From Treponema sp. (GTDB lineage Bacteria > Spirochaetota > Spirochaetia > Treponematales > Treponemataceae), in the NCBI GenBank assembly GCA_016286535.1, contig JAEESZ010000001.1, forward strand, positions 124,001-188,000: a stretch of DNA of 64,000 bases. The letters are read 5' to 3'. Position 1 is the first letter of the stretch; every line of letters begins with the position of its first letter. The notes under the pieces were generated by a model that ran no database searches, had not been told where the DNA came from, and was given only the letters and a program-made list of their open reading frames with translations. The position numbers were made by a program, and so were the translations under genes. Positions 828 through 57,116 of the stretch are shown one piece after another.

Positions 828-2246
828 TTAGCGGTTACATTCATCAACAAGAGCCTGCCACTGGTTTTTAGCACCTTCCCAAGCTTCTGCTGGTGTCATA
901 TATCCACCTGTAATACCCCAAATCATATCTCCCTGGCTTAAACCAGAAATAAGTGTATCGAAACGTGGGTTAGCTGTTTTAGCCATTAATTCAAGTGTTT
1001 CATCTACAGCACGTGAATCACGGAATCCAGCGTAGTAACCTTCTTTCCAAGAATCTGGTTCATCATATCCTGGAACATCTTCGAGCCAGAGGTCAACTGC
1101 TTTAGCAATTTTTTCTGCACGTTTGTCATCATAGCAAGATGGGATTACACACATGTTTGTATCGTGAATAGTCTTGTATACACCGTCTCCATGAGGTCCC
1201 AGTGGGAAACATACGAATCCCCAGTCGTCTGCCATCTGAGCAAAACGTCCACCTGGCTGTGCATTGTATTCCTGGTCAGCTAAGAATGCTGTTTCACCAT
1301 TAATGAATGCTGTGTAGAAGTAATCCCAGTTAGCACCTTCTGCCTGTGGTAACTGATAGTTCTGCCACATTTTCTGGATCCAGTTCCATGCTTCCATAGA
1401 GTTTTCTGAACCTGCATCGAGATAATATTTTCCGCTTGAATCACGTTTTACAATTCCGCCACCGTTTGAATCGAGTGCTGAATATGTAAATTCTGTGTTG
1501 AATGAAGACATAGCATACTGATCGATTACACCATCGTTATCTGTATCGCGTGTCATTTTCTTACACATTTCTTCGAAAACAGCCCATGTCCATTTTCCAG
1601 ATTTCTGAAGATCATATGGAAGATCTGGATCATATCCGTTTTCTTCAAGAATTCTCTTGTTAAAGAACATACCGTTCTTTGGTTCTGGTTTTCCCCAGTT
1701 GAATGCATAGAATGAGTCGCCTTTAGCGAGTTTCATTACAGCACCCTGATCATATTTTGCAGCGTTATGGTAATCTACAGATTTGATTTTTGACAAATCG
1801 TAGAATAAGTTAGCTTTTACACCTGTAACAGCTGAACGTCCATCAATAATAAATACGTAGTTTTCTTCACCGCCAGTGATACAGAAGTTTGTTACAAACT
1901 GTGGGTTTGAACCCCATCCAGAAACTGCTTTCTGAACAACGTTTACATTGTAAACATCATTTGTAAACTGTCTCCATGTAGCCAAATCTTCCTGCTGTTT
2001 TGAGTTTGGAGCAGCGTCAGGATTTGTCCACCAGTCACCTACGATTACGTCCATTTTTTTGAAGTTGAAAACTTTACCTGATTCATCTGTTTGAATTGTA
2101 ACAGCCTCATATTCAGGATTTTCTTCGACCATAGTTGCCAAGGCTTTTTCTGCTTTAGCTTTTGATCCGCCACCACCACAAGATACAACTGTCATAGAAA
2201 GAAGAACAGCTGACATTGCGAGTAATGAACCAGCAATTTTTTTCAT
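828..2246 (-). CDS. sugar ABC transporter substrate-binding lipoprotein (cassette 1, importer B)
   Basis: Family 1 extracellular solute-binding protein of 472 aa that should capture an oligosaccharide for the adjacent permease pair. The N-terminus is a lipoprotein signal ending in VVSC (Cys23) followed by a Gly-rich linker, so it is probably tethered in the periplasm. Typical features follow: WTNPDA near 73, a DTDNDGVIDQ-type segment near 235, and an aromatic-rich second lobe. AAGGAG precedes the ATG. It is last in cassette 1 and is separated from the upstream permease by a hairpin and an apparent promoter of its own, which would let it be made in excess over the permeases. Substrate unknown. 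Unlike its cassette 2 counterpart (570 aa), it has no extra C-terminal domain. Confidence 0.9.
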   Translation of the reverse strand: MKKIAGSLLAMSAVLLSMTVVSCGGGGSKAKAEKALATMVEENPEYEAVTIQTDESGKVFNFKKMDVIVGDWWTNPDAAPNSKQQEDLATWRQFTNDVYNVNVVQKAVSGWGSNPQFVTNFCITGGEENYVFIIDGRSAVTGVKANLFYDLSKIKSVDYHNAAKYDQGAVMKLAKGDSFYAFNWGKPEPKNGMFFNKRILEENGYDPDLPYDLQKSGKWTWAVFEEMCKKMTRDTDNDGVIDQYAMSSFNTEFTYSALDSNGGGIVKRDSSGKYYLDAGSENSMEAWNWIQKMWQNYQLPQAEGANWDYFYTAFINGETAFLADQEYNAQPGGRFAQMADDWGFVCFPLGPHGDGVYKTIHDTNMCVIPSCYDDKRAEKIAKAVDLWLEDVPGYDEPDSWKEGYYAGFRDSRAVDETLELMAKTANPRFDTLISGLSQGDMIWGITGGYMTPAEAWEGAKNQWQALVDECNR

Positions 2247-2306: not shown

Positions 2307-2360
2307 ACAATTTTTTTTTAGGAGATTTCTTCTATTAAGCAAAATCCCCTAAAAAATTGT
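2307..2360 (-). terminator. long hairpin between permease and binding-protein genes
   Basis: An inverted repeat of about 20 nt per arm, ACAATTTTTTAGG.GATTTT against AAATC.CCTAAAAAA..TTGT, separated by about 12 nt. It starts at the permease stop codon. The A/T arms allow termination, attenuation or 3'-end stabilisation; which one cannot be told from sequence. Confidence 0.55.
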
Positions 2361-3355
2361 TACATCTTAACACCAGTAGAAGCAAGACTTTCAACAAAGA
2401 GTCTCTGGCAGAAGAGGTAGAGGATAATTAAAGGAATTATCATCAAAAGAATACCAGTAGAAAGAATTGCATTTGAATATCCTACAGATGCCATGGCACT
2501 TGCACCATATAAACCGCTTAAATAGGTTCCTAAACGTTCTGTTAATCCCGAAATCTGTGTAGAGAGGAGTTTGATTTTTCCTAAGAAAAGGTCTGTATAG
2601 AAAGAATCTGTCCACTGCCATACAAAAGAGAAAAGGAAACAAGAAGTTAAGATTGGTTTTGCACCAGGAATCATAATCTTAAAGAAAGTTGCGAATGGTC
2701 CGCAGCCGTCTACATAAGCAGCCTCTTCCAGTTCGAATGGGAAGCCCATAAAGAACTGACGGATCATAAAGATGTAAAGACCATTTTTAAGTCCCATACA
2801 GCCAAGACACATCAAAAGATATGGCACCATAGAAGAACTTAAATTAAGCTTCAATCCAAGCAGATTAAAATAGCGGAAGTGAAGGAACAAAGAGGTAGAA
2901 ATTGTCTGTGGAGGAATAACGATGATTAAGATTACACAGAAGAACCAGAATCTTTTTAAAGGGAACTGGAATCTTGAAAAACCGTATCCTACAAGAGAAC
3001 AAACAAAAACTTCAATTACAGAAACTAAGGCAGAAACCCAGATTGTATTGAAGAGAGAAAGCTTATATTCCATCAATAAGTTTGTAATTCGCCAGTTACT
3101 TACAGAAAAGTGCTTTGGAACCAGAATAATTGTAGTATCATAAAGGTCTTTTTCAGCCATAAAACTGATTGCAATTTTATTTAAGATTGGCTGAATAATC
3201 ATAAAGCACATTCCAAACAATAGAATTAATCTAAAGATAGAAATTGCATATTTTTTAGAAGTTTCTTTTAATAAAACTCCGCCAGATGCTTCATTACGTT
3301 CCCAGAAAGAACGTTTTTCTACAACTGCTGCTGTTGGTTTTTTATTTTTAGTCAT
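2360..3355 (-). CDS. ABC sugar permease, MalG/LplC type (cassette 1, importer B)
   Basis: Inner-membrane permease of 331 aa with six predicted membrane segments, the first near 43-60 after a charged N-terminal tail. The EAA loop that docks the ATPase is clear at about 210-230 (EEAAYVDGCGPFATFFKIMIP). It pairs with the MalF-type permease encoded just upstream, with an 8-bp overlap that suggests translational coupling. Its closest relative in the window is the 22158..23132 permease of cassette 2, which carries nearly the same EEAAYVDGC motif. No ATPase gene is adjacent. Substrate unknown; probably an oligosaccharide. Confidence 0.93.
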   Translation of the reverse strand: MTKNKKPTAAVVEKRSFWERNEASGGVLLKETSKKYAISIFRLILLFGMCFMIIQPILNKIAISFMAEKDLYDTTIILVPKHFSVSNWRITNLLMEYKLSLFNTIWVSALVSVIEVFVCSLVGYGFSRFQFPLKRFWFFCVILIIVIPPQTISTSLFLHFRYFNLLGLKLNLSSSMVPYLLMCLGCMGLKNGLYIFMIRQFFMGFPFELEEAAYVDGCGPFATFFKIMIPGAKPILTSCFLFSFVWQWTDSFYTDLFLGKIKLLSTQISGLTERLGTYLSGLYGASAMASVGYSNAILSTGILLMIIPLIILYLFCQRLFVESLASTGVKM

Positions 3356-4283
3356 AGTTGTATACCACCTTAGAAATAATTAGCGAACTTAAGCCTATTA
3401 ACAACATACAAACAACAAAGTAAATCCAGGCAAGTGCAGAAGAGTAACCATAATTCAACTGAATTACCATCTGATTATTGATTTTTTCCATAATCTTGTT
3501 ATCGGTCTTCATAAAGAAGTCAACGATTGTGTAAATCCAGCAAACAAGCATTAAAGGGCTTACCATTGGAACTGTAATTTTCCAAAGGCTTTCCCATGCT
3601 GTACAACCTTCCATATCGGCAGCTTCATACATACTTGGAGATATGTTCTGTAAACCAGAAAGGAAGATAATAATCTGAATACCAGATGCCATTGCAACTT
3701 CGTAAATAGAATCGATTACTTCAAACAAGGTTTTGAAAATCTTTCCACTAGGACCATTTACACCACCGGCATTTGAAAGAAGAATATCTTCCAGAACCTG
3801 GGTAATTGAGTTAGAGTTTCCTGCTTCTTCAATTGTAGCCTTTAACTGCTGCATTAAAGTATTGTTGTATTCAAGTCCAACAAGTACACCAGAAGAAAGA
3901 ATTACAGTAAGGAAGAAGATAGAACGAGCAAGAGCCCTACCCTTAAACTTCTGATTTAAGATTAAGGCAACGAAGAAACTGAATACAATTGTAGCCAGAG
4001 ATCTTACGAACATCTGGATAATAGCCTCAGTTAACATTCGGTTGAACTCAGGGTCAATTCTAAAAGCACGATTATAGTTTGCAAAATTATTCCAGTTTAA
4101 CTTGAAGCCGGAATTAGAAATTACAACCTCGCAGAAACTCATTCTTAATGATTCAAACATAGGTTTAACCATAAAGAAGAGGAATCCCAAAATAAATGGT
4201 AATATAAAAATATATCCGTATAATGCACGTCTTTTTGTAAGACCTACATTTTTAGATTTTTTAGGTAACTTAAGTTTAGGCAT
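3348..4283 (-). CDS. ABC sugar permease, MalF/LplB type (cassette 1, importer B)
   Basis: Inner-membrane permease of 311 aa forming a heterodimer with the 2360..3355 product. The N-terminal tail is basic and is followed by a membrane segment starting YGYIFILPFILGFLFF. The EAA loop reads MYEAADMEGCTAWESLWKI near residue 222. AGGAGGT precedes the ATG, which lies 1 bp after the stop of the DUF5696-like gene. It corresponds in order and motif to 23145..24053 in cassette 2. Confident as a transporter subunit; the substrate is not evident. Confidence 0.92.
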   Translation of the reverse strand: MPKLKLPKKSKNVGLTKRRALYGYIFILPFILGFLFFMVKPMFESLRMSFCEVVISNSGFKLNWNNFANYNRAFRIDPEFNRMLTEAIIQMFVRSLATIVFSFFVALILNQKFKGRALARSIFFLTVILSSGVLVGLEYNNTLMQQLKATIEEAGNSNSITQVLEDILLSNAGGVNGPSGKIFKTLFEVIDSIYEVAMASGIQIIIFLSGLQNISPSMYEAADMEGCTAWESLWKITVPMVSPLMLVCWIYTIVDFFMKTDNKIMEKINNQMVIQLNYGYSSALAWIYFVVCMLLIGLSSLIISKVVYNYD

Positions 4284-4284
4284 T

Positions 4285-6963
4285 CTATTTTACCTCCTGC
4301 ACTACTTTGTAATCGCGAGCAGGAATTACAAGTCCTGAATCTGTTACAAAATCAACATAACCAAAGTTTACAAAAACTTTATAACCGTTATCAAAGCTTG
4401 TTGCAGTTACAGATTCATTAACATAAGTATGATCAGTAATACAACTGTTTGCTACAGGTCCAATTTCCTTATTATAGCGGCTATAAATCTGATTAATCTG
4501 TTCCTTCCAGGTGTCAAAACAAGCAGCATAGTATTCTGTGTAGTTTGTTTCCTGAAGTTTCATTTCAGATTCGTTCATAACTGTAAAGAAGAGGCCTGCA
4601 CCTGTTTCTGCAGATTCAAGTACAATCTGATTCTTTTCATAACCAAGGTTTACAGCAGAACCTGAATAGTTTTTATATCCGTGTAAAGCTATCTGATAGA
4701 ATGGAACGGTAAGGTCAATAATTGAATAAGAGTTTCCATGGAAATCCATGTTTGTAATAAAGTCTACATTATTCAAGGCATAGTCATTACCTGAATTAAT
4801 CATAATCTTAAGACCCTTATCTTTTGCATCCTTCATTTTTTCGATCTGCATATTCTTAGATGCACTTCTGCTTACAGGTCTGTCATCATTATAATCTGCA
4901 CTTAAGATACTTCCGTTATCTCTGTAAGAAATACCGTCAAGGCCATATTTCAGGGCAGTTTTAGTAAATAAATCTGCTGATTTAGCACTTACATAAGGAT
5001 TAAGGTAGAAATATGAATCCTGAGTATGAAGTTTTCCGTACCATACAGGAGAGTATTTGTTTAATTCACAAACTTCAGAACTTACAAATCTTGCCGGTGT
5101 ACTGTAGCGGTTGAAGCCGTCAAATATTCCGGAACGGTAAGCAAACTGCATTGAACCGTCAAGATAGATATTTGCAGATAAATCTTTTGTCTTTTCAATT
5201 AATTTATTAAAGCCTTTTTTACCACCAAGAGTATCGATAAGCTTGAACTTATTAAAGATTTTCTGGCTGATACCGCCATTAAAGAAACCTGAAAGTTTGT
5301 AATTTACATTCTTAAAGCCTAATTCTTCTACCTGATTGATAATATCTGCAGCCTGATCATAAGTTGTAAGCTGATAAGGTTTAGTCTTTGGCATACCTGC
5401 TACCTGCTGAACTTTATCAACTGCACCAATGATTTCGATTGCTAAAGGAGAAGATTCATTATTAAGCTTTTTCTGATCTGCAAATAATACTTTCTGATAT
5501 TCTTTAGCCATATCAACATAAGAATTAGAATTAATGAAAGAATATACCTGGGTAATAGATTCACCCTTAGGAAGATTTGCTTCATAAGCGTACTGAGCAG
5601 AAGTATTTCTTGAAGAAACTTCATACTGTTCACCGTGAATCATCTTATAATCTGCACGAATGTAGTTATAATTTCCTAATTTACCGGCAATTTCTGCTGT
5701 AATACCTGCATATTCAGCACCGTTTTTAATAACTGTTATGAATGATGATTCTTCAAAAGCTTCTCCAAATACAGGATAAGCAATCTTTGTTTCTGTAATA
5801 ACAGCCTTACGGTCTATACCGTAATCCCAGCCGTAAAGATCAGCATAATAGCCGTTCTGTTTTGTTTTACCGTTATTAAAGTAAATTAAACTTCCGCCCC
5901 CCTCTGGAACAAGCATAAAGCCGTTTTCGCCTTCAGTTGAAGCTCCAAAGTAAGGAAGTACAGAAAGCTGTATTATAGGATAAGCATGTTTATAAGCAAT
6001 TTCGTCAAATGGAACATCTACAAGAAGTTTATTGCCGTCAAGTTTGTATACAATAGAAATATTGAAAGCAGGAACTTCTTTTTCATTCTTTTCTTTATAG
6101 ATTTCCTTATATTTTGCATAATCTTCATTTGTAAATCCGATTCTGTCAAAAATATCTTCACAACTTTCCTTTAAGTAGTTATTTAATGGATCAAATACCA
6201 GATAGAGCTTATTTTTCTCTAAGTCCGGATATTTTTCCAGCATTTCTGCCTTGTTATCAGCAAGTTTTTTTACATCAACAAGTTTGTAACAGCGTTTTGT
6301 AATTACGTTCTGTTCATCTTTTGTCATTTTTGAAAGGAATACTTTCATATCCGGTTCATAAATTGCCAGAGGATATCTGTAAACTCTTTCAATCTGACCG
6401 ATTGTGTAATTAACTGTTACAGAATCAGCTGTTTTTTCAATAGAATAAAAGTCCTTATCTACTGAATAAGTCTTTGTATCATAAATATTATCTACACCGT
6501 TTTCTGTAGAATATTTAATAAGAAGACTTGAGTTCATGTAGTTCTTTTCTTTGGCAAGAGCAATAGGATCATTTTCTGCACCAGCTGGTGAAGATGACCA
6601 TACTCTTCCTGTGTCTTTCTGTGTAACAGTAAAGTTTGTAGTAAGAGGATCAAGTACAAACTTTAATTTGCTGTTTTCAAGAACATAATCAGAAACATTT
6701 TCCTTGTCTTCTTCAAAGTTATAGAATGCAAAAGGAAGATCTTTTACATTAGAAACATCTATAAGTCTAAGAACAATGTAAGTTGCAAATGCAATAAAAG
6801 CAGCTAAGAAACCAATTGCAATCCAGTTACCAACAGTTGGTTTATGGAATTCGAAGGTTTTTGTCTTCATTGGTTTTGGACGGCCAATATAACCTTCAGG
6901 CATTTTTGATTTTTTTGGAGTTTTAGGTGCTTTTTCTTTCTTTATTTTTTCTTTCTTTTCCAT
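4285..6963 (-). CDS. membrane-anchored DUF5696-like protein, possible glycan-acting TIM barrel (cassette 1)
   Basis: Large protein of 892 aa from the start chosen here. The ORF track begins 9 nt earlier at a GTG, but AGGTG sits at the right distance for the ATG at 6963. A Lys-rich cytoplasmic tail of about 47 residues is followed by one membrane helix (WIAIGFLAAFIAFATYIV), then a large extracytoplasmic part. Residues ~310-500 look beta-rich (FMLVPEGGGSLIYFNNG near 360). Residues ~540-790 have the rhythm of a TIM barrel, with SGFFNGG and GISYRDNGS segments whose acidic residues could be catalytic. From memory of the family this resembles DUF5696, which lies next to LplB/YtcP-type permeases in Firmicutes; no biochemical function is known to me. 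Cassette 2 encodes a signal-peptide version of the same protein. Confidence 0.75.
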   Translation of the reverse strand: MEKKEKIKKEKAPKTPKKSKMPEGYIGRPKPMKTKTFEFHKPTVGNWIAIGFLAAFIAFATYIVLRLIDVSNVKDLPFAFYNFEEDKENVSDYVLENSKLKFVLDPLTTNFTVTQKDTGRVWSSSPAGAENDPIALAKEKNYMNSSLLIKYSTENGVDNIYDTKTYSVDKDFYSIEKTADSVTVNYTIGQIERVYRYPLAIYEPDMKVFLSKMTKDEQNVITKRCYKLVDVKKLADNKAEMLEKYPDLEKNKLYLVFDPLNNYLKESCEDIFDRIGFTNEDYAKYKEIYKEKNEKEVPAFNISIVYKLDGNKLLVDVPFDEIAYKHAYPIIQLSVLPYFGASTEGENGFMLVPEGGGSLIYFNNGKTKQNGYYADLYGWDYGIDRKAVITETKIAYPVFGEAFEESSFITVIKNGAEYAGITAEIAGKLGNYNYIRADYKMIHGEQYEVSSRNTSAQYAYEANLPKGESITQVYSFINSNSYVDMAKEYQKVLFADQKKLNNESSPLAIEIIGAVDKVQQVAGMPKTKPYQLTTYDQAADIINQVEELGFKNVNYKLSGFFNGGISQKIFNKFKLIDTLGGKKGFNKLIEKTKDLSANIYLDGSMQFAYRSGIFDGFNRYSTPARFVSSEVCELNKYSPVWYGKLHTQDSYFYLNPYVSAKSADLFTKTALKYGLDGISYRDNGSILSADYNDDRPVSRSASKNMQIEKMKDAKDKGLKIMINSGNDYALNNVDFITNMDFHGNSYSIIDLTVPFYQIALHGYKNYSGSAVNLGYEKNQIVLESAETGAGLFFTVMNESEMKLQETNYTEYYAACFDTWKEQINQIYSRYNKEIGPVANSCITDHTYVNESVTATSFDNGYKVFVNFGYVDFVTDSGLVIPARDYKVVQEVK

Positions 6964-6975
6964 ATCAATCACCTA

Positions 6976-7653
6976 TCAGTTTAATCTGAACATAATTTCT
7001 CGACCAAGAGAAACGAAATATGCAACACCCTGAGAAATCATACTGAAGAACAATAGCATAATAAAAATAAATACTAACATTCCAAAAATTGTGATTACTG
7101 TAAACAAAAGTGTTTTTGCAAATCCGTATTGATGAATCATCATCATGGCCATAAAGATTAACATTGCACACCATAACAATGAAATTGAATCAAATACTGA
7201 ATAGAAGGTACCTTCATCTCTTGTAATAAAAAGACTTACAATGATTAATGGAATCTGAATAAGTGGATAAGGAGTAAGAGCATAAGCTGTTCCCTTATAA
7301 ACATCACCTAAATGACCTTTTCCATCAAAAAGTGTTGTACAAGCCCAGTTACAAATACAGAAAATTGACAATGGAAGAAGAATTGTAGCAATTTCCATGA
7401 AGATATTTACTTTTTCCCAGTTTACATTATTAAAAAGGAAACTGGTAAAGTGCAACTTCCAGATGTGGGTAAGAAGAGTAAGTAAAACGATGAAGTTTGC
7501 AGCTGAATATGAACCTCTCTTAGCGTGAATTAAATCCCACATACCATCTGCCGGATGAAAAATTACGTAAAGAGAATATTTTAATGTTTTACCAAAATGG
7601 ATGTATGTTTCTTTTTGGCTTAGTTTACTTAATTTTTTAGTTAGATAACTCAT
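6976..7653 (-). CDS. Yip1-like multi-pass membrane protein (cassette 1)
   Basis: 225 aa with about five membrane helices between residues 50 and 215. The preceding segment FHPADGMWDLIHAKRGS (near 52) and the CNWACTTLFDGKG loop (near 112) are typical of the bacterial Yip1-like family, whose role is unknown. Start and stop overlap as ATGA with the NHL/TPR gene, so translation is coupled. In cassette 2 the equivalent domain is the C-terminal third of one polypeptide (TNWALCTLQDGKG), showing that the NHL/TPR and Yip1 parts work together. A regulatory or scaffolding role at the transporter is inference. Confidence 0.75.
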   Translation of the reverse strand: MSYLTKKLSKLSQKETYIHFGKTLKYSLYVIFHPADGMWDLIHAKRGSYSAANFIVLLTLLTHIWKLHFTSFLFNNVNWEKVNIFMEIATILLPLSIFCICNWACTTLFDGKGHLGDVYKGTAYALTPYPLIQIPLIIVSLFITRDEGTFYSVFDSISLLWCAMLIFMAMMMIHQYGFAKTLLFTVITIFGMLVFIFIMLLFFSMISQGVAYFVSLGREIMFRLN

Positions 7654-9122
7654 AATGATCTAAGCTCCTGTTTGAATGCCTTAACCTTCTTATGAATGAA
7701 AGGCACAAGAATAAGAACTACAACAATTACTAAAACCCACCAGAGATTTGCTTCAATCCAGTCCTTGCGGTAGTACTGGAAGGCTTTAGAATAATTCTTT
7801 TTATCGCGTTTTAATTTGAAATAGCGGATTGCATCTTCATATTTTTCCTGGCGGAAGCAGGCTTTTCCAAGACCAATGTAAGCCAGATCATAGTTTCCGT
7901 TCTGTTTAAGAACTTCGCCCCAGATTTCTGCAGATTCATCGTATCTGCCCTGAGCATACATTTCAGTTGCATCATAAATTAAATCGCCGTAAGAAGTTGG
8001 AGTAAATACAGTAATAGAAGCATTCTGAGAATCAAGAACAAAAAGATCACGACCAATATGTTCTATTGCAGAAGGAGCACGGAAATAACCGTCGATATTA
8101 CCTCTGTTACCGAAGGCAAACAAAAGCAGGCCCTGATTATTATAGGCAAAAAGGCGGCCGCGTGATTCATCTACAGCAATGTAAACTTCGTTTTCTAAAA
8201 CTGTAATATCTGTAAAGTGTGAAGGCTCTTTAATACCAGCAGCGTTATCCCACTGTAAATCGCCGATTGGAGGATAATCTCCGTTCTTTACAAGAATATC
8301 ATTTCCAAGAGCATTAAGACGTCTGATTGGTTTTGCTACGTCAGATTTAAGGTCCCACTGCTCGAAAGTTTTTGTAACGGCATAAAGGAAGCCTTCGTGA
8401 TCCATGTAAACATTTGAATATTCTGTAGGAACAAAAGATTCCATCTGTTCTCGCTGAGCACGGGTAGCAAACTTTTTCCATAAATAGTCAGTCCAGTCAA
8501 ACTTTACGTTTGAAGCTCCAAAGAAGCCCTGGAAAGTTCCGTCGTATTCGTACTTAATAAAACCTTTGTTTACGTTCTTTGCAAGAACATAAGCACGGCC
8601 TTTTGAATCTGCAACAACCTTCTGAGGATAGAAAACCTTTCCTTTTTCGTAGGTTGGATCATCAGGTTCAACAAAAGAAAGAAGATAATTCCAGTCTTTA
8701 TCGCATTTTACAACACGTCCGTTATTTGTATCTGCTACAAAGATTGAGCCGTCTTCTTTGTTTACAAAAACATCAGAAGGGCCGCTGAAGGTTTCAATTA
8801 CCTGACCATTTGAATTAAAACTTGTAATTACTTTGCTTAAAGTAAGTACTTTATTATCTGAATATACTAATTCAACAATACGATCATTATCTGTATCTGC
8901 AAGGTAAACTTTGTTACCGATGCAGAAAAGACTCTGTGGAGTTCCAAGAGGTTTATCAAGTTTTAAGTCATCTGCGTAAAGAACATGAGAAACCCTGTAA
9001 ACATCTGGTGATTTTTCTACTTCACCCCAATAATCGTAAATATAAGCATCAGCTTTTGCAAAAAGTCCTGCACAGAAAGTGAAAAGACTTGCTACTGTAA
9101 ATAATATTTTTCGTCTATTCAT
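7650..9122 (-). CDS. secreted NHL-repeat/TPR protein with C-terminal membrane anchor (cassette 1)
   Basis: 490 aa from the start chosen here (ATG at 9122). The ORF track start lies inside the preceding permease gene and would hide the signal sequence MNRRKILFTVASLFTF, and AAGGA precedes 9122. After the signal come several NHL/beta-propeller blades (YLADTDNDRIVEL, IFVADTNNGRVVKC, LFVLDSQNASITVF), then two TPR-like helices near 390-450 (LAYIGLGKACFRQEKYEDAIRYF), then a C-terminal helix (LWWVLVIVVVLILVPFI) with a basic tail. The propeller should face the periplasm. NHL propellers bind ligands, proteins or RNA, or act as lactonases; no catalytic residues are obvious, so a binding or sensing role is more likely. 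Confidence 0.78.
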   Translation of the reverse strand: MNRRKILFTVASLFTFCAGLFAKADAYIYDYWGEVEKSPDVYRVSHVLYADDLKLDKPLGTPQSLFCIGNKVYLADTDNDRIVELVYSDNKVLTLSKVITSFNSNGQVIETFSGPSDVFVNKEDGSIFVADTNNGRVVKCDKDWNYLLSFVEPDDPTYEKGKVFYPQKVVADSKGRAYVLAKNVNKGFIKYEYDGTFQGFFGASNVKFDWTDYLWKKFATRAQREQMESFVPTEYSNVYMDHEGFLYAVTKTFEQWDLKSDVAKPIRRLNALGNDILVKNGDYPPIGDLQWDNAAGIKEPSHFTDITVLENEVYIAVDESRGRLFAYNNQGLLLFAFGNRGNIDGYFRAPSAIEHIGRDLFVLDSQNASITVFTPTSYGDLIYDATEMYAQGRYDESAEIWGEVLKQNGNYDLAYIGLGKACFRQEKYEDAIRYFKLKRDKKNYSKAFQYYRKDWIEANLWWVLVIVVVLILVPFIHKKVKAFKQELRSL

Positions 9123-9126
9123 ACTG

Positions 9127-10020
9127 TTAGTCCTTAAGTCCCGAAGTAGCCATTGTTTCAAGAATCTGGCTCTGAGAGAAGATGAAGAAGATAATTGGTA
9201 CAGAAATGGTAATAACAGTTACTGCCATTGCCTGTCCTGTACGAACAATTCCACCTGCCTGAATCTGCTGTAAAGCATAAGCAAGCATTTTTTTGTTTTC
9301 TGAATAAATTACACTTGAAGCCTTGTTGTTCCATAATCCCTGTACAGAGAAAATAGAAATTGTAAGCCAGGCTGGTCTTACGTTTGGCATTACAAGTTTC
9401 CAGAAAATTGTAAATTCGTGGGCACCGTCAATCTTTGCAGCTTCAATTAATGACATTGGGAAGCCTTCCATGAACTGTTTCATAAGGAAGAGACCCATTG
9501 AACCACCAATTGCAGGAAGAATAAGAGCCCAGTAAGTATCAACAATGTGAAGACGGCACATAATCAGATAGTTTGGAATACCTGTTACATAACCACTGAA
9601 CATAAGTGCAACTACTACTACACGGAAGAAAATGCTTCCGCCAGGAAAGTTGTATTTGGCAAGAACATAAGCTGCCATAGATGCAATGATTACATGACCA
9701 ATTGTACCGGCAAGGGTAATTAATACTGTATTGTAGATATATCTTGAGAATGGAACCAGAGAAAGGCTCATTGTAACAAACAAATCAGAAAAATTTTCCA
9801 ATGTAGGATTTCTTGGCAAGATATCTGGAGGGAATTTTAAAAGTTCATCCAGTGGTTTTAATGACTGACAGAGTGAGAAGAACAATGGGAAGAACATTAT
9901 GATAGAACATAATCCCAGGAAGATATAGATTCCAATATCACCACCAATAGAGCGGTTTGGCTTTCGGCGGTGTTTATAATGATGAATTGTTGTGTCTTTG
10001 TACATATTTTTAGAACTCAT
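9127..10020 (-). CDS. ABC sugar permease, MalG/LplC type (cassette 1, importer A)
   Basis: 297 aa with six predicted membrane segments after a basic N-terminus. EAA loop LIEAAKIDGAHEFTIFWKLVMP near residue 190. The C-terminus ETMATSGLKD is nearly identical to that of 28413..29312 (ETMATSGIKD) in cassette 2. GGAGGTT precedes the ATG. It pairs with 10031..10969 and should serve the fused binding protein at the head of the operon. Confidence 0.93.
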   Translation of the reverse strand: MSSKNMYKDTTIHHYKHRRKPNRSIGGDIGIYIFLGLCSIIMFFPLFFSLCQSLKPLDELLKFPPDILPRNPTLENFSDLFVTMSLSLVPFSRYIYNTVLITLAGTIGHVIIASMAAYVLAKYNFPGGSIFFRVVVVALMFSGYVTGIPNYLIMCRLHIVDTYWALILPAIGGSMGLFLMKQFMEGFPMSLIEAAKIDGAHEFTIFWKLVMPNVRPAWLTISIFSVQGLWNNKASSVIYSENKKMLAYALQQIQAGGIVRTGQAMAVTVITISVPIIFFIFSQSQILETMATSGLKD

Positions 10021-10030: not shown

Positions 10031-10969
10031 CTACTGACCTACTCTATTTAATAATGACTGAATAATCTTATTACAGATAATCATGGTAAGGAACAAAACA
10101 GTTGCAATTGCTGAAGCGTATCCCATTTCAAAACGTTCAAAACCGTAGTCGAACAGGTGAGTTACAATTGTTCGCGCACAGTAATCGGTTGAAGGATATC
10201 CTGCAAGCTGCATAGGAACATCACAAACGTTGAAAGCAGATGTAATTGACATTACGGCACCAAAAAGAAGCATTGGCTTCATGTTAGGAAGTGTGATGTA
10301 CCACAATTCCTGCCAGCGGTTCTGAATACCGTCAATATATCCGGCTTCGTACTGTGACTGATCAATACCTTTTAAACCTGCTACGAAAGCAAGGAAGCCT
10401 GAACCCAGAGACATCCAGAGGATTACTGGAATTAAAAGCTTCATTACATTTTCTGGAGAAGTTAAGAACTGAATTGGTTCATTAACAATACCAAGTTTAA
10501 TTAACCATCCGTTTGCCCAACCATAAGCATCATCACGGAAAATTAACTGGAAAACTGGTACTACGTTTGCAGAAAGTGAAGGTGCGTAGAAGAAGAATAC
10601 AACTAAAGTTCTTACCCACTTTGGAAGTTCATTAATAAGCCATGCAAAAATAAATGCCATTATGTAACCAACAGGACCTGTAATGATTGCAATAAGGAAG
10701 GTATTTTTAACAGCCTTCTGGAAAACTTCGTCCTGAAGGAAGAGATTTATGTAGTTTCTTACACCAATAAATTCCGGTTTCTGTAAAATATTAAAGTTAG
10801 TAAAACTATAATATATAGAGTTGATCATTGGCAGAATATTAAATGTCAAGAACAACGCTGCATAAGGCAAAAGGAACAGATAACAGAATTTGAGAGTTTT
10901 AGCCCGTCTTACTGTATCTGTAAGCTGGAGTCGTTTTTTATTTCTATATTTAATCCAAACTTCGCTCAT
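10031..10969 (-). CDS. ABC sugar permease, MalF/LplB type (cassette 1, importer A)
   Basis: 312 aa with six predicted membrane helices. The EAA loop is the LplB-like YEAGYIDGIQNRWQELWYITLP, shared almost exactly with 29305..30249 (YEAGRIDGIKNRWQELWYI). LplB-like importers take up complex oligosaccharides in Firmicutes. GAGGAG lies before the ATG, 10 bp after the stop of the large binding protein. No ATPase is encoded nearby. Confidence 0.93.
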   Translation of the reverse strand: MSEVWIKYRNKKRLQLTDTVRRAKTLKFCYLFLLPYAALFLTFNILPMINSIYYSFTNFNILQKPEFIGVRNYINLFLQDEVFQKAVKNTFLIAIITGPVGYIMAFIFAWLINELPKWVRTLVVFFFYAPSLSANVVPVFQLIFRDDAYGWANGWLIKLGIVNEPIQFLTSPENVMKLLIPVILWMSLGSGFLAFVAGLKGIDQSQYEAGYIDGIQNRWQELWYITLPNMKPMLLFGAVMSITSAFNVCDVPMQLAGYPSTDYCARTIVTHLFDYGFERFEMGYASAIATVLFLTMIICNKIIQSLLNRVGQ

Positions 10970-10979: not shown

Positions 10980-13900
10980 CTACTCGTCTATAGGAAGGTT
11001 AAATTCCTGGCGTTTACGAGTTAACTCTTCGTTAATTTCACGTGTGTAGTCTATTAATGTTTCGCGAGGATCATTCTGCTGTGTTACAACCATACGGGTA
11101 GCATTAACAATATGGCGAGGTGTATAGTAACTTCCCGGAACTTCAGGAACTCCTATAGTCTGTTCAAGTGAATTTAACAAGATTTCAAGCTGTGCAGAAC
11201 TCCATGGAAGCTGTTTCAGAGCCTCAATATTTGCTGTGGCATAACGTGCAGAAGAACCGAGTAAGGCTTCAAGTTCACGTCCAAAACGAAGCTGAGTTTC
11301 TGCAGAAACCCACCACTTCATGAATTCCCATGAATCATGCATTCTGGTTTCATTCTTCATAATTTCTTTTAAGGTTTTTTCATCAACATTTGGCATACTT
11401 GCATCAGAGAGCTTTGTAGCAAAAATTGAATCATAAGAAATGTTAGAAGAATCAGTATAAGTTACATCTGAAAGGTCAAGGCCTTTTTTAATCATCATAC
11501 AGCCCACACCACCAGAAGTAGTTCTTCGGTCAATGTAAGTATTACCGTTTTCATCAACTTTTTCTGTACCAGGGAGATAAGTAAAATCCCATAATCCTCT
11601 GATTTCTGGAGCAGATACAGTTAATGTATTGTAAGTTACGTAGTTAGCAATACCAAGAGGCATTTCTGCAGAACGGAAGCGGCTCACAAAGTCAAAGTAA
11701 GAAGGAAGTCCGTAACTGTTGTACAAACTTGTATAAGTCTTGAAAGCAGCAATTGCGGCTTCAGAATCCATTGCAGATTTTGTTCCTGCAGGATTGTAAA
11801 TATCACCGTCATTCTGGAATACAAGAGAATACAGGGTTGTCATATCAGGGGCCTGTAATGTTGGGTAAGGAATACCAACGTTAAGGTTGTTACCCTGTAA
11901 TGTAGGAAGAATTTCAATTAATTCATCCCAGGTATCTGGAACTTCAAGATCAAGCTGCTCAAAAATATCTTTACGATAGAAAAGCAGGTTGAATGACTGA
12001 GTTTCTGGTAAAGCGTAAATACCACCATTGTATTTGTATGCTTCGTATGCACTAGGATAGAACTGTTTAAGAACTTCTTCACAATCATCAAAGCGCATTA
12101 AGTTTACGTCTGCACCACGCAAAGCGTAGTTTACAGGTTTAGAAGTATCTGTAGAAATTACTACATCAGGACCATTACCTGCTACAACGGCATTTAACAA
12201 AGATGAAATATCAATAAGTTTTACGTTTACGTTGATTCCGGTTTTTACTGTAAAGGAATCATCAATCATATTCTTTAAGATCTGGCTCTGGTCACGTCCA
12301 CCTGTTACAATCCAGGCCTGAATTAAATGACCTTCGTCATCTTTGTCATAAACGTTACCAAGATTGGTTGAATCTACAAAGAAAGAAGTAAAGAATGATA
12401 CAATTTCATGTTTAGCATTCTTAAAGAAATTTGATTTTTTAGGCTTAATTTTGTCACCAGCTGCCTGGATAACAAGATAATCTATATCAAGCTTTGACTC
12501 TGTCATAGCAAGCATTGATGTACCTAAAGCTGTAATATTATCTTTAAAGTTACTGAAAGTCTTTGTAATTTTTTCAGGGCGGGCATAGAACTGTTCAAGC
12601 TGAACGGCAATTTTTTCTGCCATTGCAATGTTTTCTGATTTACCGCCGGCAATTCTAATATAATCATCAACAAGTTTATACAGACGTTTACTTTCAACGT
12701 TCATTGCTTCAACCTGTTCAGGATATACCTTGTCAATTTCGTAATCGCGGAACTGATCAGGATAAGTACCTGTTAATACAAGAATTGTACGATAAATGAT
12801 ATTCATTCTGTAAATACTATCCTGAAGACCACTGATTACAGTACCAAGCTGACCAAGAGATACTTCAAGGCGGATATCATGTTTACCCTTTGAAAGATAG
12901 AATTTATATGGATCTTTATTCTTATCGCTTAAAGTTACATATTTCCAGTCTGAACTGTAGGCAAAGCCGACATCTTTTACTTCTTCCATTGGAATTTCGC
13001 CGTCAATGTATAAAGAACGGGTACTTACACTTCCACGGGAATAAAGCTGTCTTGCCTGGAAAGAAATTGTATACCAGCCGTCTTCAGGAATATCTGCCTG
13101 CCACTGAATCCACTGACCAGGAGACTTCCATGAATCACCACCAGTATAGTTTAATACTGTATTTTTTACAGAATAAGGTTCGGTAATTGCAGATGCACGG
13201 TCATAGCGGCCGAATAAAGAAGGATCAGAACGAGAAGATGACTCTTCACCCTGAATCTTAATATAAACATCTTTTACCTTATTATTTTCTGGAGAGAAAG
13301 GCTGCTTGGCAAGATACTGTTCATAATTAATATTTTTATAAACAGGCACTAAGCTTAAAGAACTTATTGCAATTGGTTCGTTTGTAGAAACCAGTTTAAT
13401 AGAGTTCACACCTTTATTGAAATAGAATTTATACGGATCAACTTCGTAACCAAGGTCACTCTTAAAAGAAACAGTCTGATACTCAAAGAATTCAACTTGA
13501 GAAGGACGAATACTGTTTCCCTGGTTATCGAATTTAACAGGTCCACCATCTTTCCACAAACGATAGAACGAAAGTGTATCGGCTCCGTTAAAAGGCATTT
13601 CGTCATTAATATAAAGGATTCGTTCCATGGTTACATTTCGGGATGGAATTGCTATGTATTCCATTGAAATATTATAGAAACCAGCTTCTGGAACATCCAC
13701 ATACCAAGTTACAGAAGAACGATCTTGTGTAACAACAACATCTTTTCCGTGATAAGAAGATTCAACTTTTGTACCGGTTGATTTTGATGAATCAAAATTG
13801 AAGATGTCTACTGATACTGATTTTGAAGGATTTTTTGCATTTTTATGCTCATTCAAATATTCTGCATAAGTTCTTGTTGCAGATGTAGTACCGATAGAAG

Positions 13901-14036
13901 TTGATAAATCAAAACCTTCGTATTTCTTGCTGAAGTTCTTTTCAGGAATAAGGCTCACGATTACGAATACCAAGATTATTGCAGCAATAACAATAACAGT
14001 GTTTCGCAACTTTTTACTGATTTTAAATCCTACCAT
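10980..14036 (-). CDS. membrane-anchored solute-binding protein fused to two carbohydrate-binding-like modules (cassette 1, importer A)
   Basis: 1018 aa, over twice the usual size of a sugar-binding protein. An N-terminal helix (VIVIAAIILVFVIVSLIP, ~14-31) lacks a cleavage site and should anchor it in the inner membrane. Two jelly-roll modules follow at about 95-235 and 255-405, with matching motifs (VTWYVDVPEAGFYNI; GQWIQWQADIPEDGWYTI). A helical spacer comes next, then a family 1 solute-binding domain from about 565 (TGGRDQSQILKNMI, NGPDVVIS, PETQSFNLLFYRKDIF). It heads cassette 1. There is no Shine-Dalgarno; an extended -10 ends 8 nt before the ATG. The 955-aa protein of cassette 2 has the same layout but a cleavable signal peptide. 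Confidence 0.85.
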   Translation of the reverse strand: MVGFKISKKLRNTVIVIAAIILVFVIVSLIPEKNFSKKYEGFDLSTSIGTTSATRTYAEYLNEHKNAKNPSKSVSVDIFNFDSSKSTGTKVESSYHGKDVVVTQDRSSVTWYVDVPEAGFYNISMEYIAIPSRNVTMERILYINDEMPFNGADTLSFYRLWKDGGPVKFDNQGNSIRPSQVEFFEYQTVSFKSDLGYEVDPYKFYFNKGVNSIKLVSTNEPIAISSLSLVPVYKNINYEQYLAKQPFSPENNKVKDVYIKIQGEESSSRSDPSLFGRYDRASAITEPYSVKNTVLNYTGGDSWKSPGQWIQWQADIPEDGWYTISFQARQLYSRGSVSTRSLYIDGEIPMEEVKDVGFAYSSDWKYVTLSDKNKDPYKFYLSKGKHDIRLEVSLGQLGTVISGLQDSIYRMNIIYRTILVLTGTYPDQFRDYEIDKVYPEQVEAMNVESKRLYKLVDDYIRIAGGKSENIAMAEKIAVQLEQFYARPEKITKTFSNFKDNITALGTSMLAMTESKLDIDYLVIQAAGDKIKPKKSNFFKNAKHEIVSFFTSFFVDSTNLGNVYDKDDEGHLIQAWIVTGGRDQSQILKNMIDDSFTVKTGINVNVKLIDISSLLNAVVAGNGPDVVISTDTSKPVNYALRGADVNLMRFDDCEEVLKQFYPSAYEAYKYNGGIYALPETQSFNLLFYRKDIFEQLDLEVPDTWDELIEILPTLQGNNLNVGIPYPTLQAPDMTTLYSLVFQNDGDIYNPAGTKSAMDSEAAIAAFKTYTSLYNSYGLPSYFDFVSRFRSAEMPLGIANYVTYNTLTVSAPEIRGLWDFTYLPGTEKVDENGNTYIDRRTTSGGVGCMMIKKGLDLSDVTYTDSSNISYDSIFATKLSDASMPNVDEKTLKEIMKNETRMHDSWEFMKWWVSAETQLRFGRELEALLGSSARYATANIEALKQLPWSSAQLEILLNSLEQTIGVPEVPGSYYTPRHIVNATRMVVTQQNDPRETLIDYTREINEELTRKRQEFNLPIDE

Positions 14037-14044
14037 AATTTAAT

Positions 14045-14053
14045 ATTGTAACA
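14045..14053 (-). promoter_or_regulatory. extended -10 promoter of cassette 1, leaderless arrangement
   Basis: TGTTACAAT on the minus strand, a TGn-extended -10 whose last base lies 8 nt before the ATG at 14036. No ribosome binding site fits in between, so the transcript probably begins at or within a base or two of the start codon. Confidence 0.5.
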
Positions 14054-14136
14054 TAAATCAGTATGTTTTACATAGGTTTTTTTTCTTAATTTATACCTTT
14101 TTTATTAAATAATTTTACATAAAACCAAATTATAAT

Positions 14137-14475: not shown

Positions 14476-14493
14476 AATTAACTCTCCTAACTT

Positions 14494-15405: not shown

Positions 15406-15429
15406 ACTCTCTAAAAGTGGATGTATTTA

Positions 15430-16875: not shown

Positions 16876-16883
16876 ATTTTATC

Positions 16884-18668: not shown

Positions 18669-18699
18669 ATATATTCTCCTTAAATTACTATCTATATAA

Positions 18700-20357: not shown

Positions 20358-22070
20358 TTAGTCAATTTTTTCAACAATCTTAATGTTATCGATTAAGAAG
20401 TCTTTCATGTTATGGCCACTAATCTGAAGACCAATTCTACCATTCTGTAAAACATCCATAATAGTTGCTTTCATATGGTATACTTCATCTTTTGATTCAA
20501 TAGTTTTACGTGTCCAGCCATATTTATGAAGGTCATTATCATAAGCCTGTACAGAAACATAAGCTTCTTCTCCAGGTTCTTTTAATGCCTTAATATCGAA
20601 TTCAACTTCGTAGCTTCTCCAGCCAACAATACCAAGTAAAGCAGGATCTGTTAAACAGTAAGCTACATCTTCGCCGTCAACTTCATAATCGCAGGCAATC
20701 TTCAAAGAACCGGCTTCAATTCCTTTTGGTTCAAATGAAATCTGTACAGAAGAATATTCTGTATCTGGCATTGGCTTAAAGGCAGCAAGCATCTTGTTGT
20801 TTTTGAAAACTTCGTTTACAGCCTTGAAAGGAAGACGTTCAAGTTTTCCAACAGGTTTGTTTGCATCCTGTACTAAAGCAACTGCCTTTGGTTCCCATGA
20901 AGCAATAGCTGTAGCAGGAGAGTTTCCTGACCATACAATTTCGCCAAGGAAGCTGTTTACAATGCTTTCGATTGGAGATGTTGTATAAGAAGGATACCAG
21001 CGGCTCTTTTCCATCTGTTCACCAAGAGCAAAGATTTCTTCCGGCCATACTTTTGCACGGTCTTTTGTATCATTTTCGTAAGTTGCTTCAACAACACAGT
21101 CAATGTAAATACCTGCATATTTTTTGTTCTGTGAACCTGCACCAATTCCGTAACCGTCACATTCGTAAATATTTTTGTGTTCTTTGTTGCTTGGTCCAAA
21201 AGGAACAGGAACATAAATAATTTCATCACGGGTATTCTTTAATACGGCAGGAGGATCGTATTCACGTCCCATTACCATAGCTACAGTTCTGCTTGCAAGA
21301 CCATCTGTAATAATAGAGTTATCCTGCTGATACCAGCCGTCATTTTTAGCATTCTGAAGATATACTAAAGCTTCTGTTACTCTCTGATCTTCCATGTTTA
21401 AAGTGATTTTACCCTTTGAGTCGATGTTTGTAAGTGTAACACCGTTTGCATAGAGTAAACCTTCTGTATACCAGTTACCAAAACCCCAGCGGTCAATTGT
21501 ACCAGAACCTGTTGTATCTTTTGTAAGTTTTAATGCTAAAGAACGAAGGTGATCCCAGTCCCATTTTCCAGCCTTCCACAAAGCTAAAGGCTGATCTTTT
21601 TCTGCGATACCCTGTTCATCCATTAATGACTTGTTGTATAAAATAATCCAGTAGTGATCAGAAGTTTTTGCAGATGCAACATAATAGCTGCCTTCATATT
21701 TAAAACAGCCGTCCATAGCATCTTTACTTAAATATTTTGCATCTAAGTTTACATACTGATTGATTGGTTCAAAATAGTGTTTTGTAAAGAATTTTGGGAA
21801 GTCAGCATTTCTTGCAAAACAAACATCAATAGGAGTTCCTGCTGCCATATAAGTAAGAAGTTTAGATTCCAGAGAACCCCAGTCACCCATTACAAAAGTA
21901 ACCTTTCCACCTGTTTTTGCAGTATATTTTTCTGCAGCCTGAACCATAATATCTTTTTTACTGCGTGGGTTTGTACCCGGTCTGAATACAGTGATATTAG
22001 GACTCTCTTTTGCAAATAAACCTGCAACCATCAAACCAAAAATTGCTGCTACAATTCTAGTTTTTTTCAT
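20358..22070 (-). CDS. solute-binding protein with extra C-terminal ligand-binding-like domain (cassette 2, importer B)
   Basis: 570 aa. The signal MKKTRIVAAIFGLMVAGLFA has no lipobox Cys, so the mature protein may be soluble in the periplasm, unlike the lipoprotein of cassette 1. The family 1 binding domain covers about 25-415 (MGDWGSLESKLLTYMAAGTPID; LALWKAGKWDWDHLRSLALK). The last ~150 residues form a separate beta-rich domain ending DFLIDNIKIVEK, the type of ending seen in carbohydrate-binding jelly rolls. GGAGG precedes the ATG. It has its own extended -10 promoter with a palindrome across the likely start point. Confidence 0.87.
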   Translation of the reverse strand: MKKTRIVAAIFGLMVAGLFAKESPNITVFRPGTNPRSKKDIMVQAAEKYTAKTGGKVTFVMGDWGSLESKLLTYMAAGTPIDVCFARNADFPKFFTKHYFEPINQYVNLDAKYLSKDAMDGCFKYEGSYYVASAKTSDHYWIILYNKSLMDEQGIAEKDQPLALWKAGKWDWDHLRSLALKLTKDTTGSGTIDRWGFGNWYTEGLLYANGVTLTNIDSKGKITLNMEDQRVTEALVYLQNAKNDGWYQQDNSIITDGLASRTVAMVMGREYDPPAVLKNTRDEIIYVPVPFGPSNKEHKNIYECDGYGIGAGSQNKKYAGIYIDCVVEATYENDTKDRAKVWPEEIFALGEQMEKSRWYPSYTTSPIESIVNSFLGEIVWSGNSPATAIASWEPKAVALVQDANKPVGKLERLPFKAVNEVFKNNKMLAAFKPMPDTEYSSVQISFEPKGIEAGSLKIACDYEVDGEDVAYCLTDPALLGIVGWRSYEVEFDIKALKEPGEEAYVSVQAYDNDLHKYGWTRKTIESKDEVYHMKATIMDVLQNGRIGLQISGHNMKDFLIDNIKIVEKID

Positions 22071-22119
22071 TTTTTCCTCCTGACTTTTTATAACATTTTA
22101 TAAAAACAATTCTATAACA

Positions 22120-22137
22120 AATCTGACAGAACAGATT
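22120..22137. promoter_or_regulatory. palindrome at the start point of the cassette 2 binding-protein promoter
   Basis: AATCTG, 6 nt, CAGATT, immediately downstream of the extended -10 (22138..22146) and spanning the expected transcription start. An operator or a 5'-end hairpin are both possible. Confidence 0.4.
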
Positions 22138-22146
22138 ATTATACCA
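22138..22146 (-). promoter_or_regulatory. extended -10 promoter for the cassette 2 binding protein
   Basis: TGGTATAAT on the minus strand, a perfect TGn-extended -10, lying between the permease stop (22158) and the binding-protein start (22070). It gives a leader of about 60 nt. The same placement is seen at 2283..2291 in cassette 1. Confidence 0.55.
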
Positions 22147-22157
22147 TAATTTTTTTT

Positions 22158-23132
22158 CTAGCCTACAAGACCAGATCTTGTAATACTTTCTGTAAAGTAT
22201 TTTTGAGCGAAAATATAGAGTAATAAAAGCGGCATAATGACAACAAAACAGGCTGCTTCAAGAATTGAACTTTCAGCCAGTGCCATATTTTCTGCATTCA
22301 TTGACTCTGCCAGTAAAGACAAACGATCCTGCAAAACAGTTACACCTACCGACAAAGGATAATTATCTACATAGAACATAACTGCAAGGTAATAGTCGTT
22401 CCAGTGCCATACAATAGAAAACAATAAGATTACAATAATAATGCTTCCTACATTTGGAACCATAATTCTTATAAAGGTAGAAAAAGGATTACAGCCGTCA
22501 ACATAAGCGGCTTCCTCAAGTTCCTTTGGCATACCTGAGAAGAACTGACGGATCATGTAAATGTAAAGTCCGGAACGGATTCCTACCCCAGTTGCAGACA
22601 TAATATAGAAAGGCCAGTTTGTATTTAATAAGTTAATACTTACCGCATCTCCATGATTAAAGGGTCTTAAAAGCTGACCAAGATAGAAGAAATCAAAGAA
22701 GTGGAACTTTACATATAAAGGAATAATTATTGTAGAAGATGGAACAATAATTGTAAAAATAAGGCAGGCAAAAAGAAGGTTCTTACCCTTAAAATTAAAG
22801 CGGGAAAAACCATATGCAACCATAAGGCAGACAAAAACCTGCACGATTACAGATGGCACAAGAATTCCGATTGTTTTTAATATGGAATCTTTAAAACCGA
22901 TTAATTCATCTGCGAAAGCAAAGTTACTCATGGTAAGAGTTTTTGGAATCCAGATGATGGTTGGGTCAAGTCTGTCTACAGGTGCTCTGAACGCATTTGA
23001 AAGCAAAAAGAGTACAGGATAGAGCAAAACATATGACATTCCCAGAAGAAAGAGAAATCTGAAAATCTTTACTATTATACTAAGCGATTTATCTGCCAGT
23101 GATTTATTTTTGAATTTAAAACCTTTTGTCAT
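22158..23132 (-). CDS. ABC sugar permease, MalG/LplC type (cassette 2, importer B)
   Basis: 324 aa with six predicted membrane segments. EAA loop EEAAYVDGCNPFSTFIRIMVP near 215, matching 2360..3355 of cassette 1. It pairs with 23145..24053 encoded 12 bp upstream. No linked ATPase. Confidence 0.93.
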   Translation of the reverse strand: MTKGFKFKNKSLADKSLSIIVKIFRFLFLLGMSYVLLYPVLFLLSNAFRAPVDRLDPTIIWIPKTLTMSNFAFADELIGFKDSILKTIGILVPSVIVQVFVCLMVAYGFSRFNFKGKNLLFACLIFTIIVPSSTIIIPLYVKFHFFDFFYLGQLLRPFNHGDAVSINLLNTNWPFYIMSATGVGIRSGLYIYMIRQFFSGMPKELEEAAYVDGCNPFSTFIRIMVPNVGSIIIVILLFSIVWHWNDYYLAVMFYVDNYPLSVGVTVLQDRLSLLAESMNAENMALAESSILEAACFVVIMPLLLLYIFAQKYFTESITRSGLVG

Positions 23133-23144
23133 AGTCCACCTGCC

Positions 23145-24053
23145 CTAGTTCAAAGCCTTGTTTACATTTTTAGTAAGTAACACATTAACAAGACCAATAA
23201 TTGCCAAAACAATCACGAAATATACTATAGAAATTGTTGTAGAATAAGCGTAATTTCCCTGCCCTACATAGGTTACAATCATACGCATTACCTTATTGGA
23301 ATAATCCGTAAAGTAATCAATGATGGAATAAATTACAGTTGTTACGATTGTTGGAGAAATCATAATGAATGTAATTTTCCAGAAGGTTTCCCATTCTGTA
23401 GCACCTTCAATTCTTGCAGCTTCGTACATAGAATCCGGAATTGAGTGTAAAGCAGATAATAATAGAAGAATCTGTACACCACTTTTCCAGGTAAGGTCAA
23501 ATACGGCTCCTACGGTTGAAGTAATAATTTTTACCACCTGGGCATTCAAACCAGATTTAATTAAAACTTCATTTATAAGACCAGTCTGAAAGAGGGTTCC
23601 GGCCTGTCCGTTTGTTCCGGAAAGAACATTTTCCCTTAAAATTGTAATTACAACTCCGGAAGAAATAATTACCGGTAAGAAGAAGATTGAACGCATCATT
23701 GTTCTTCCCCTGAAGTCATTGCGCAGTAAAAGTGCAATAAAAAGGCTGAAGAAAACAATGATTGGAACCTGATACAAAATATTTAAGGTTGAATCTACAA
23801 TTGCACGGGTAAAATCAGGGTCTACGGTAAAGGCTCTTACATAGTTGTCCAGACCGCAGAAATCCATTCTTAAACCGGCACTTGTAATGTTCATTTCATT
23901 AAAGGTATAGGTAAAAGCTGTAATAAGAGGCACTGCAAAGAAACAGATAAAACCTAACAGCCAGGGAGCAATAAATACGTATCCCCAGCGTGACTGTCTT
24001 TCAATAAGTCCAGCTTTTTTACTTTCTTTCTTTATTTTCTTATTTTTTTCCAT
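23145..24053 (-). CDS. ABC sugar permease, MalF/LplB type (cassette 2, importer B)
   Basis: 302 aa. Lys-rich N-terminus, first membrane segment WGYVFIAPWLLGFICFF, EAA loop MYEAARIEGATEWETFWKITF near 215. The Pro normally ending the EAA motif is replaced (KITFIM), a small deviation. Counterpart of 3348..4283. It starts 2 bp after the stop of the DUF5696-like gene, so the two are tightly linked in translation. Confidence 0.92.
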   Translation of the reverse strand: MEKNKKIKKESKKAGLIERQSRWGYVFIAPWLLGFICFFAVPLITAFTYTFNEMNITSAGLRMDFCGLDNYVRAFTVDPDFTRAIVDSTLNILYQVPIIVFFSLFIALLLRNDFRGRTMMRSIFFLPVIISSGVVITILRENVLSGTNGQAGTLFQTGLINEVLIKSGLNAQVVKIITSTVGAVFDLTWKSGVQILLLLSALHSIPDSMYEAARIEGATEWETFWKITFIMISPTIVTTVIYSIIDYFTDYSNKVMRMIVTYVGQGNYAYSTTISIVYFVIVLAIIGLVNVLLTKNVNKALN

Positions 24054-24055
24054 AA

Positions 24056-26296: not shown

Positions 26297-26307
26297 CCTG
26301 CTGCCCC

Positions 26308-28404: not shown

Positions 28405-28412
28405 TTTGCCCC

Positions 28413-56998: not shown

Positions 56999-57116
56999 GA
57001 GGGTTTATTACAAAACCCTCAAAACGGCGAAGTCAAGGCTTTAAGCGTGAGCGTGCCTTGACTCGACGTATTTACGGCTCACAAGTCTGGCCGCTTAAGC
57101 TATGTTTTTTAGCTTA
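56999..57116 (-). other. structured 3' region of the ATPase transcript: three further hairpins
   Basis: Between the ATPase stop and its terminator lie three inverted repeats: GAGGGTTT / AAACCCTC (56999-57020), GTCAAGGC / GCCTTGAC (57032-57062), and TAAGCT / AGCTTA spanning the stop codon (57096-57116). The stretch is richer in G+C than its surroundings. It could stabilise the mRNA or be the precursor of a small RNA; nothing here tells which. Confidence 0.45.

Follow-up and report, generated by a model that had tools for sequence, protein, structure and literature searches.

Two genes in the 64,000-nucleotide stretch of Treponema sp. DNA analysed here (the window), FUS_A (10980..14036, 1018 aa) and FUS_B (30239..33106, 955 aa), encode solute-binding proteins (SBPs) preceded by two CBM35/6-like modules, and each is the lead gene of a cassette on the minus strand, the two cassettes being collinear. 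In our judgement there is an even chance that such a fusion serves as the receptor in a dual-importer uptake complex, with its second module, which is split by a helical insertion, acting as a conserved docking platform and with substrate choice made elsewhere. On this reading the fusion would be held in the membrane and supply, through its SBP domain, the receptor for a CUT1-type ABC importer that has P1 and P2 as its two permeases and draws on a MalK/UgpC-type ATPase for power. Together with NHL-TPR and Yip1 proteins, a DUF5696 protein, and a second importer (SBP2-P3-P4), this importer would make up an oligosaccharide-uptake complex encoded by nine genes. Both N-terminal modules would descend from CBM35/CBM6-like β-sandwiches. 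The split module 2 would be a conserved architectural and docking unit, setting the SBP domain over the permeases and bringing it up against the ectodomains of the other anchored proteins, and may retain a small, generic contact to a sugar or to calcium. The choice of substrate would reside mainly in SBP2, P3-P4, DUF5696, and the neighbouring hydrolases.

The original prediction had placed fusions of ∼950–1020 aa at the heads of both cassettes and considered them conserved between the two copies, and both points held. By ORF and Pfam analysis FUS_B has the architecture of FUS_A, with a signal peptide-like N-terminus (its 955 aa are counted from the ATG at 33106; the 979 aa of the ORF list begin at an upstream TTG), and the same architecture recurs across phyla, within a carbohydrate-importer cassette. 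In the AlphaFold2 model of full FUS_A, for which an alignment of 49 relatives was the input (mean pLDDT 85.9, pTM 0.83), the protein is anchored by an N-terminal transmembrane helix (aa 8–29; 13950..14015) with no lipobox; a lipobox-like motif is present in just 9 of 112 fusion relatives. Module 1 (aa 66–235; 13332..13841), a CBM35/6-like β-sandwich by AlphaFold2, profile search, and Foldseek, carries a conserved insert around RLW..DNQGN. The N-terminal part of module 2 (aa 257–395; 12852..13268), likewise a CBM35/6-like β-sandwich by AlphaFold2 and profile search, is followed by a helical bundle (aa 397–512; 12501..12848; same two methods) and by the last strand of the module (aa 516–525, LDIDYLVI; 12462..12491), which in the model and alignment is the counterpart of the CBM35 NLD motif. 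A conserved hydrophobic helix (aa 537–553, FFTSFF; 12378..12428; AlphaFold2 and alignment) links module 2 to the SBP domain (aa 571–1018; 10983..12326), which is of MalE/CUT1 type by Pfam, sequence search, and Foldseek. Pfam SBP_bac_1/8 models match the C-terminal halves of FUS_A and FUS_B with E-values from 3.9e-15 to 1.4e-24 (62.5 and 56.8 bits for FUS_A, 78 and 87.8 for FUS_B, above the curated cut-offs of 26/27), and the two-lobed fold predicted for FUS_A reaches a TMt of up to 0.82 against MalE-type SBPs. Pfam, predicted fold, adjacent permeases, and a MalK-type ATPase all point to a CUT1-type domain, with an oligosaccharide as its putative ligand.

A Foldseek search with the full FUS_A model matched nothing but SBPs and MBP fusions, and a separate model of the modules (residues 33–532, pLDDT 89.3) was therefore built for a search of its own. 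CBM35/CBM6 structures were then matched (CsxA CBM35, TMt 0.78; Rhe-CBM35; Xyn30D; CITase); high-ranking matches to Cry, Vip3, and GH101 were dismissed on account of their low TM-scores over very long alignments. When a profile of the same residues was compared with PDB sequences, the best match was the CBM35 of cycloisomaltooligosaccharide glucanotransferase (CITase; E 1.5e-7), with other CBM35 and CBM6 sequences matching more weakly. As profile search and Foldseek give the same kin, we assign both modules to the CBM35/CBM6-type β-sandwich, in keeping with the expectation that structure prediction and comparison with CBM families would reveal two jelly rolls ahead of the SBP domain. The accompanying view of the helices as a spacer did not survive, as they appear to be an insertion within module 2. 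After removal of residues 399–511 and fusion of the flanks in 19 diverse relatives, the joined module 2 profile matched the CITase CBM35 at E 4e-10, a value that is no strict control on the 1.5e-7 above since the two profiles were built from different row sets. The alignment extended through the "LxxD" of strand 517–525 onto the CBM35 "NLD" strand, the joined module covered positions 27–121 of the 125 in CBM_6, i.e., nearly to its end, and the nine-residue strand remained a strand in the AlphaFold2 model lacking the SBP domain. Taken together, these observations support a bundle that interrupts module 2 ahead of its last strand.

It had also been proposed that the modules keep a long glycan beside the importer, and as working CBMs they would hold such a polymer in place, which would allow oligosaccharides to be captured as soon as they are released. 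The likeness of the modules to CBM35/6 in fold and profile speaks for this, as does the Trp kept in module 2 where the region-A Trp aligns, but the window proteins score under the Pfam curated cut-offs: FUS_A reaches 15.3 bits for CBM_35, and its joined module 2 18.4 bits for CBM_6 (cut-offs 28/28.9), the Golvesin_C/CBM_35 matches on the N-terminal modules of FUS_A and FUS_B are all sub-threshold, and no NCBIfam model scored above its own cut-off on the fusion protein. Members of CBM35/6 usually carry a Trp in region A and an Asn in region C (PMC9843283). In our sequence alignment, position 364 of module 2, aligned with the region-A Trp of CITase, is W in 105 of 112 relatives, but where the region-C Asn aligns, at position 517, 79 relatives carry D and 18 carry E (together 97 of 112); judged by eye, module 1 lacks an Asn at the corresponding point as well. 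Because the region-C residue is replaced and the Pfam cut-offs are missed, we rejected CBM35 membership and would describe the modules as CBM-fold relatives rather than demonstrable CBM35 members. A missing signature is no proof of missing binding, since one CBM35/6-like module with neither residue still binds polygalacturonic acid (PMC9843283), and genes for GH10, GH26-CBM35, and PL11 lie among the neighbours of the cassettes. The fusion would face outside in monoderm Clostridia; in Treponema it should be anchored in the inner membrane and lie in the periplasm, a compartment in which no polymer would be expected. Polymer holding is possible in monoderm hosts and less so in the Treponema periplasm, and with module 2 conserved whatever the neighbours, the proposal is not supported and we consider it doubtful.

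The main argument on this point comes from comparing ten cassettes that differ in their neighbours. Median identity was highest for P1 (50%), P2 (43%), the SBP domain of the fusion (40%), and module 2 (37%), followed by P3 (34%), P4 (32%), NHL-TPR (30%), and Yip1 (29%), and was lowest for module 1 (27%), the helices (26%), DUF5696 (24%), and SBP2 (18%). Family-wide information content was 2.26 bits for module 2, 2.06 for the SBP domain, and 1.72 for module 1, and the loops of module 2 are nearly as conserved as its strands. If module 2 were a glycan holder specific for one substrate, it should differ wherever the substrate differs; because it varies little, we favour a structural or docking role or, alternatively, a ligand common to all cassettes. 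The latter would make module 2 a pocket for a small ligand (e.g., a uronic acid, a terminal sugar, or calcium) that acts as sensor or gate. Module 2 departs from the canonical CBM35/6 signature, yet a conserved ligand pocket is possible, because a Trp, an Arg, and an acidic residue are near-invariant where the CBM35/6 site aligns. Near-invariant positions of the module are W303, W312, Q330, R340, W364, D/E517, and D519; R340 is found in 110 of 112 relatives, and Q330 and D519, the latter in the last strand, in all 112. Butyrivibrio keeps these residues, with E at 517, and Paenibacillus keeps most of them, with Q at 517. Some are probably fold-core positions, however, and we think such a pocket improbable as the main role of the module, even though, with W364, R340, Q330, and D/E517, its conservation would also fit a common ligand, which counts against docking.

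The docking interpretation draws further on the genes that accompany the fusion. In cassette A it is followed by a MalF-type permease (P1_A, 10031..10969) and a MalG-type permease (P2_A, 9127..10020), both identified by ORF and Pfam analysis and both with an EAA loop (in P2_A, read from sequence); by three proteins identified with Pfam, namely an NHL propeller-TPR protein with a signal or anchor and a C-terminal transmembrane segment (7650..9161), a polytopic Yip1 membrane protein (6976..7653), and a TM-anchored DUF5696 protein, a relative of the GH129-like barrel by profile search as well (4285..6972); and by three ORFs encoding permeases P3_A (3348..4283) and P4_A (2360..3355) and a separate, lipoprotein-like binding protein, SBP2_A (828..2246). 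The remainder of cassette B (20358..30249; ORF, Pfam) encodes P1, P2, DUF5696, P3, P4, SBP2, and, as a single polypeptide, NHL-TPR with a Yip1-like membrane part. SBP2_B (20358–22070) has ∼180 extra C-terminal residues that resemble another β-sandwich by eye, a domain with no relatives among Pfam models or PDB sequences. Intergenic gaps are ≤12 nt in both window cassettes, except for 113 and 87 nt before SBP2. The order fusion, P1, P2, NHL-TPR, Yip1, DUF5696 was found in 68 of 68 Treponema and Clostridia loci with enough sequence, the first eight genes (through P4) were in order in 62 of 62, and paralogues at 26–33% identity retain the gene set. A DUF4097-like protein (14494–15405) precedes FUS_A, a position that it keeps in 16 Treponema loci; no such protein was found ahead of the fusion in clostridial loci.

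A profile search of the 2.55 Mb Treponema genome found only one OB_MalK ATPase, of UgpC/MalK type, also on the minus strand of the window (57114..58235), and it is probably the shared motor of the importers of both cassettes. The fusion, P1, and P2 might instead have lost their import function and help the SBP2-P3-P4 importer, either as its sensor or as a factor in its assembly. The conservation of the fusion SBP, P1, and P2 beside a divergent SBP2 could be read in this way, but their permeases retain EAA loops, the SBP fold is complete in the AlphaFold2 model, and one Paenibacillus cassette comes with its own ATPase, so we regard the loss of import as very unlikely. The direction of transport is presumably inward.

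DUF5696 shows profile similarity to GH129 (NagBb, 5wzn; Zobellia, 5opq), with an E-value of 2e-15 to the 5opq group, and differs in being membrane anchored. Where NagBb has the Asp that is replaced in its mutant 5wzq, 34 of 39 DUF5696 proteins (A-type) have Ser/Thr, which makes activity uncertain, and the family is possibly an inactive or altered enzyme; the DUF5696 protein of cassette B (24056–26356) has Asp at this position. Other carbohydrate-active proteins surround the cassettes. GH10, GH43, GH26-CBM35, CBM65, GH130, GH30, PL11, and a PcRGLX-type protein were seen among the loci, as examples from individual loci, and cassette B of the window is accompanied by GH130, a CE2-like esterase, a GDSL esterase, GH8, and two secreted mannanase-GBD-like proteins. 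The last two are small (33335–33940 and 33962–34576), resemble the PF21253 mannanase galactose-binding-like domain, and lie divergently upstream of FUS_B. These neighbours suggest that different copies of the cassette handle xylan, mannan, and rhamnogalacturonan oligosaccharides. Some loci have an additional gene between P4 and SBP2: a three-CBM65 protein in a mannan-associated cassette of Clostridium sp. KNHs205 (locus positions 1294–3159) and a different, 771-aa protein in locus L123.

The fixed order, the gene set retained in paralogues, the conservation pattern, the tight gaps, the NHL-TPR/Yip1-like fusion, the EAA loops, and the carbohydrate neighbours are together the reason that we favour a complex in which module 2 docks the receptor. 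Counted against this is a divergent cassette on a Paenibacillus cellulosilyticus plasmid (locus positions 13833–29434), which sits not among hydrolases but among three LLM flavin-dependent oxidoreductases, located around SBP2; these neighbours and its own UgpC ATPase, encoded immediately ahead of the cassette, suggest an unusual substrate. The records of this plasmid and of one from Butyrivibrio fibrisolvens, on which a GH43 gene overlaps the fusion gene, contain the same cassette set annotated gene by gene, with the fusion labelled merely "extracellular solute-binding protein".

A single genome scan yielded 162 relatives of the fusion, and the module pair was present in 63 of 291 sampled Clostridia genomes, so the architecture lies far beyond chance. 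The pair nearly always occurs within a frame of 900–1100 aa and not alone, and among 296 sampled Spirochaetota just 13 have it. Gut and rumen samples are the source of many named relatives. In a FastTree tree, which was midpoint-rooted and has some long branches, spirochaete fusions fall in three places among clostridial sequences, and the two window fusions are far apart and nested separately among them. The tree fits a scenario in which spirochaetes acquired the fusion from Clostridia more than once. A recent tandem duplication of the window cassettes was rejected given this placement and an identity of 35%, and the two copies are best described, from sequence comparison, as distant paralogues.

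In SBP fold and sequence the fusion resembles MalE, the β-1,2-glucooligosaccharide-binding protein Lin1841 (5ysb), and Tlet_1705 (5ci5), and like other CUT1-type importers the system has MalF/MalG-type permeases and a distant MalK/UgpC ATPase. In contrast to known CUT1 receptors it has ∼570 extra residues comprising two CBM-like modules and a helical insertion, FUS_A has a transmembrane anchor in place of a lipobox, and the cassette includes obligatory NHL-TPR, Yip1, and DUF5696 proteins and a second importer. With the CBM35 modules of CITase (5x7g), Rhe-CBM35 (2w47), and CsxA (Chi-CBM35, 2vzp), the modules share the β-sandwich, the VPxxGxY core, the final LxxD strand and, by sequence alignment, the region-A Trp position; unlike CBM35/CBM6 they sit on a transporter receptor rather than an enzyme, and module 2 has a helical bundle ahead of its last strand and Asp/Glu for the region-C Asn.

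In Bacteroidota, SusD/SGBP surface glycan receptors and utilisomes couple glycan capture, degradation, and import through a conserved gene set. The cassette differs in having no SusC/SusD, in being ABC-driven, and in occurring in Treponema and Bacillota. A literature search on DUF5696, on Yip1 or NHL proteins with binding proteins, and on CBM-fused binding proteins found no description of it, and the cassette and its split-module receptor seem to be previously undescribed. We suggest, tentatively, that Bacillota and Treponema may have in it an as yet undescribed "utilisome", driven by ABC transporters, in which a constant core (the fusion, P1-P2, and NHL-TPR-Yip1), joined via the split CBM-like module, would serve swappable substrate-specific units (SBP2-P3-P4, DUF5696, and local hydrolases). 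The fusion architecture is far commoner than its two copies in the window, with roughly one in five of the Clostridia genomes sampled carrying it. Should its products form a single complex, the cassette would account for the coupling of degradation to import in monoderm fibre degraders without SusCD, and it would give DUF5696, bacterial Yip1, and NHL-TPR proteins a testable role.
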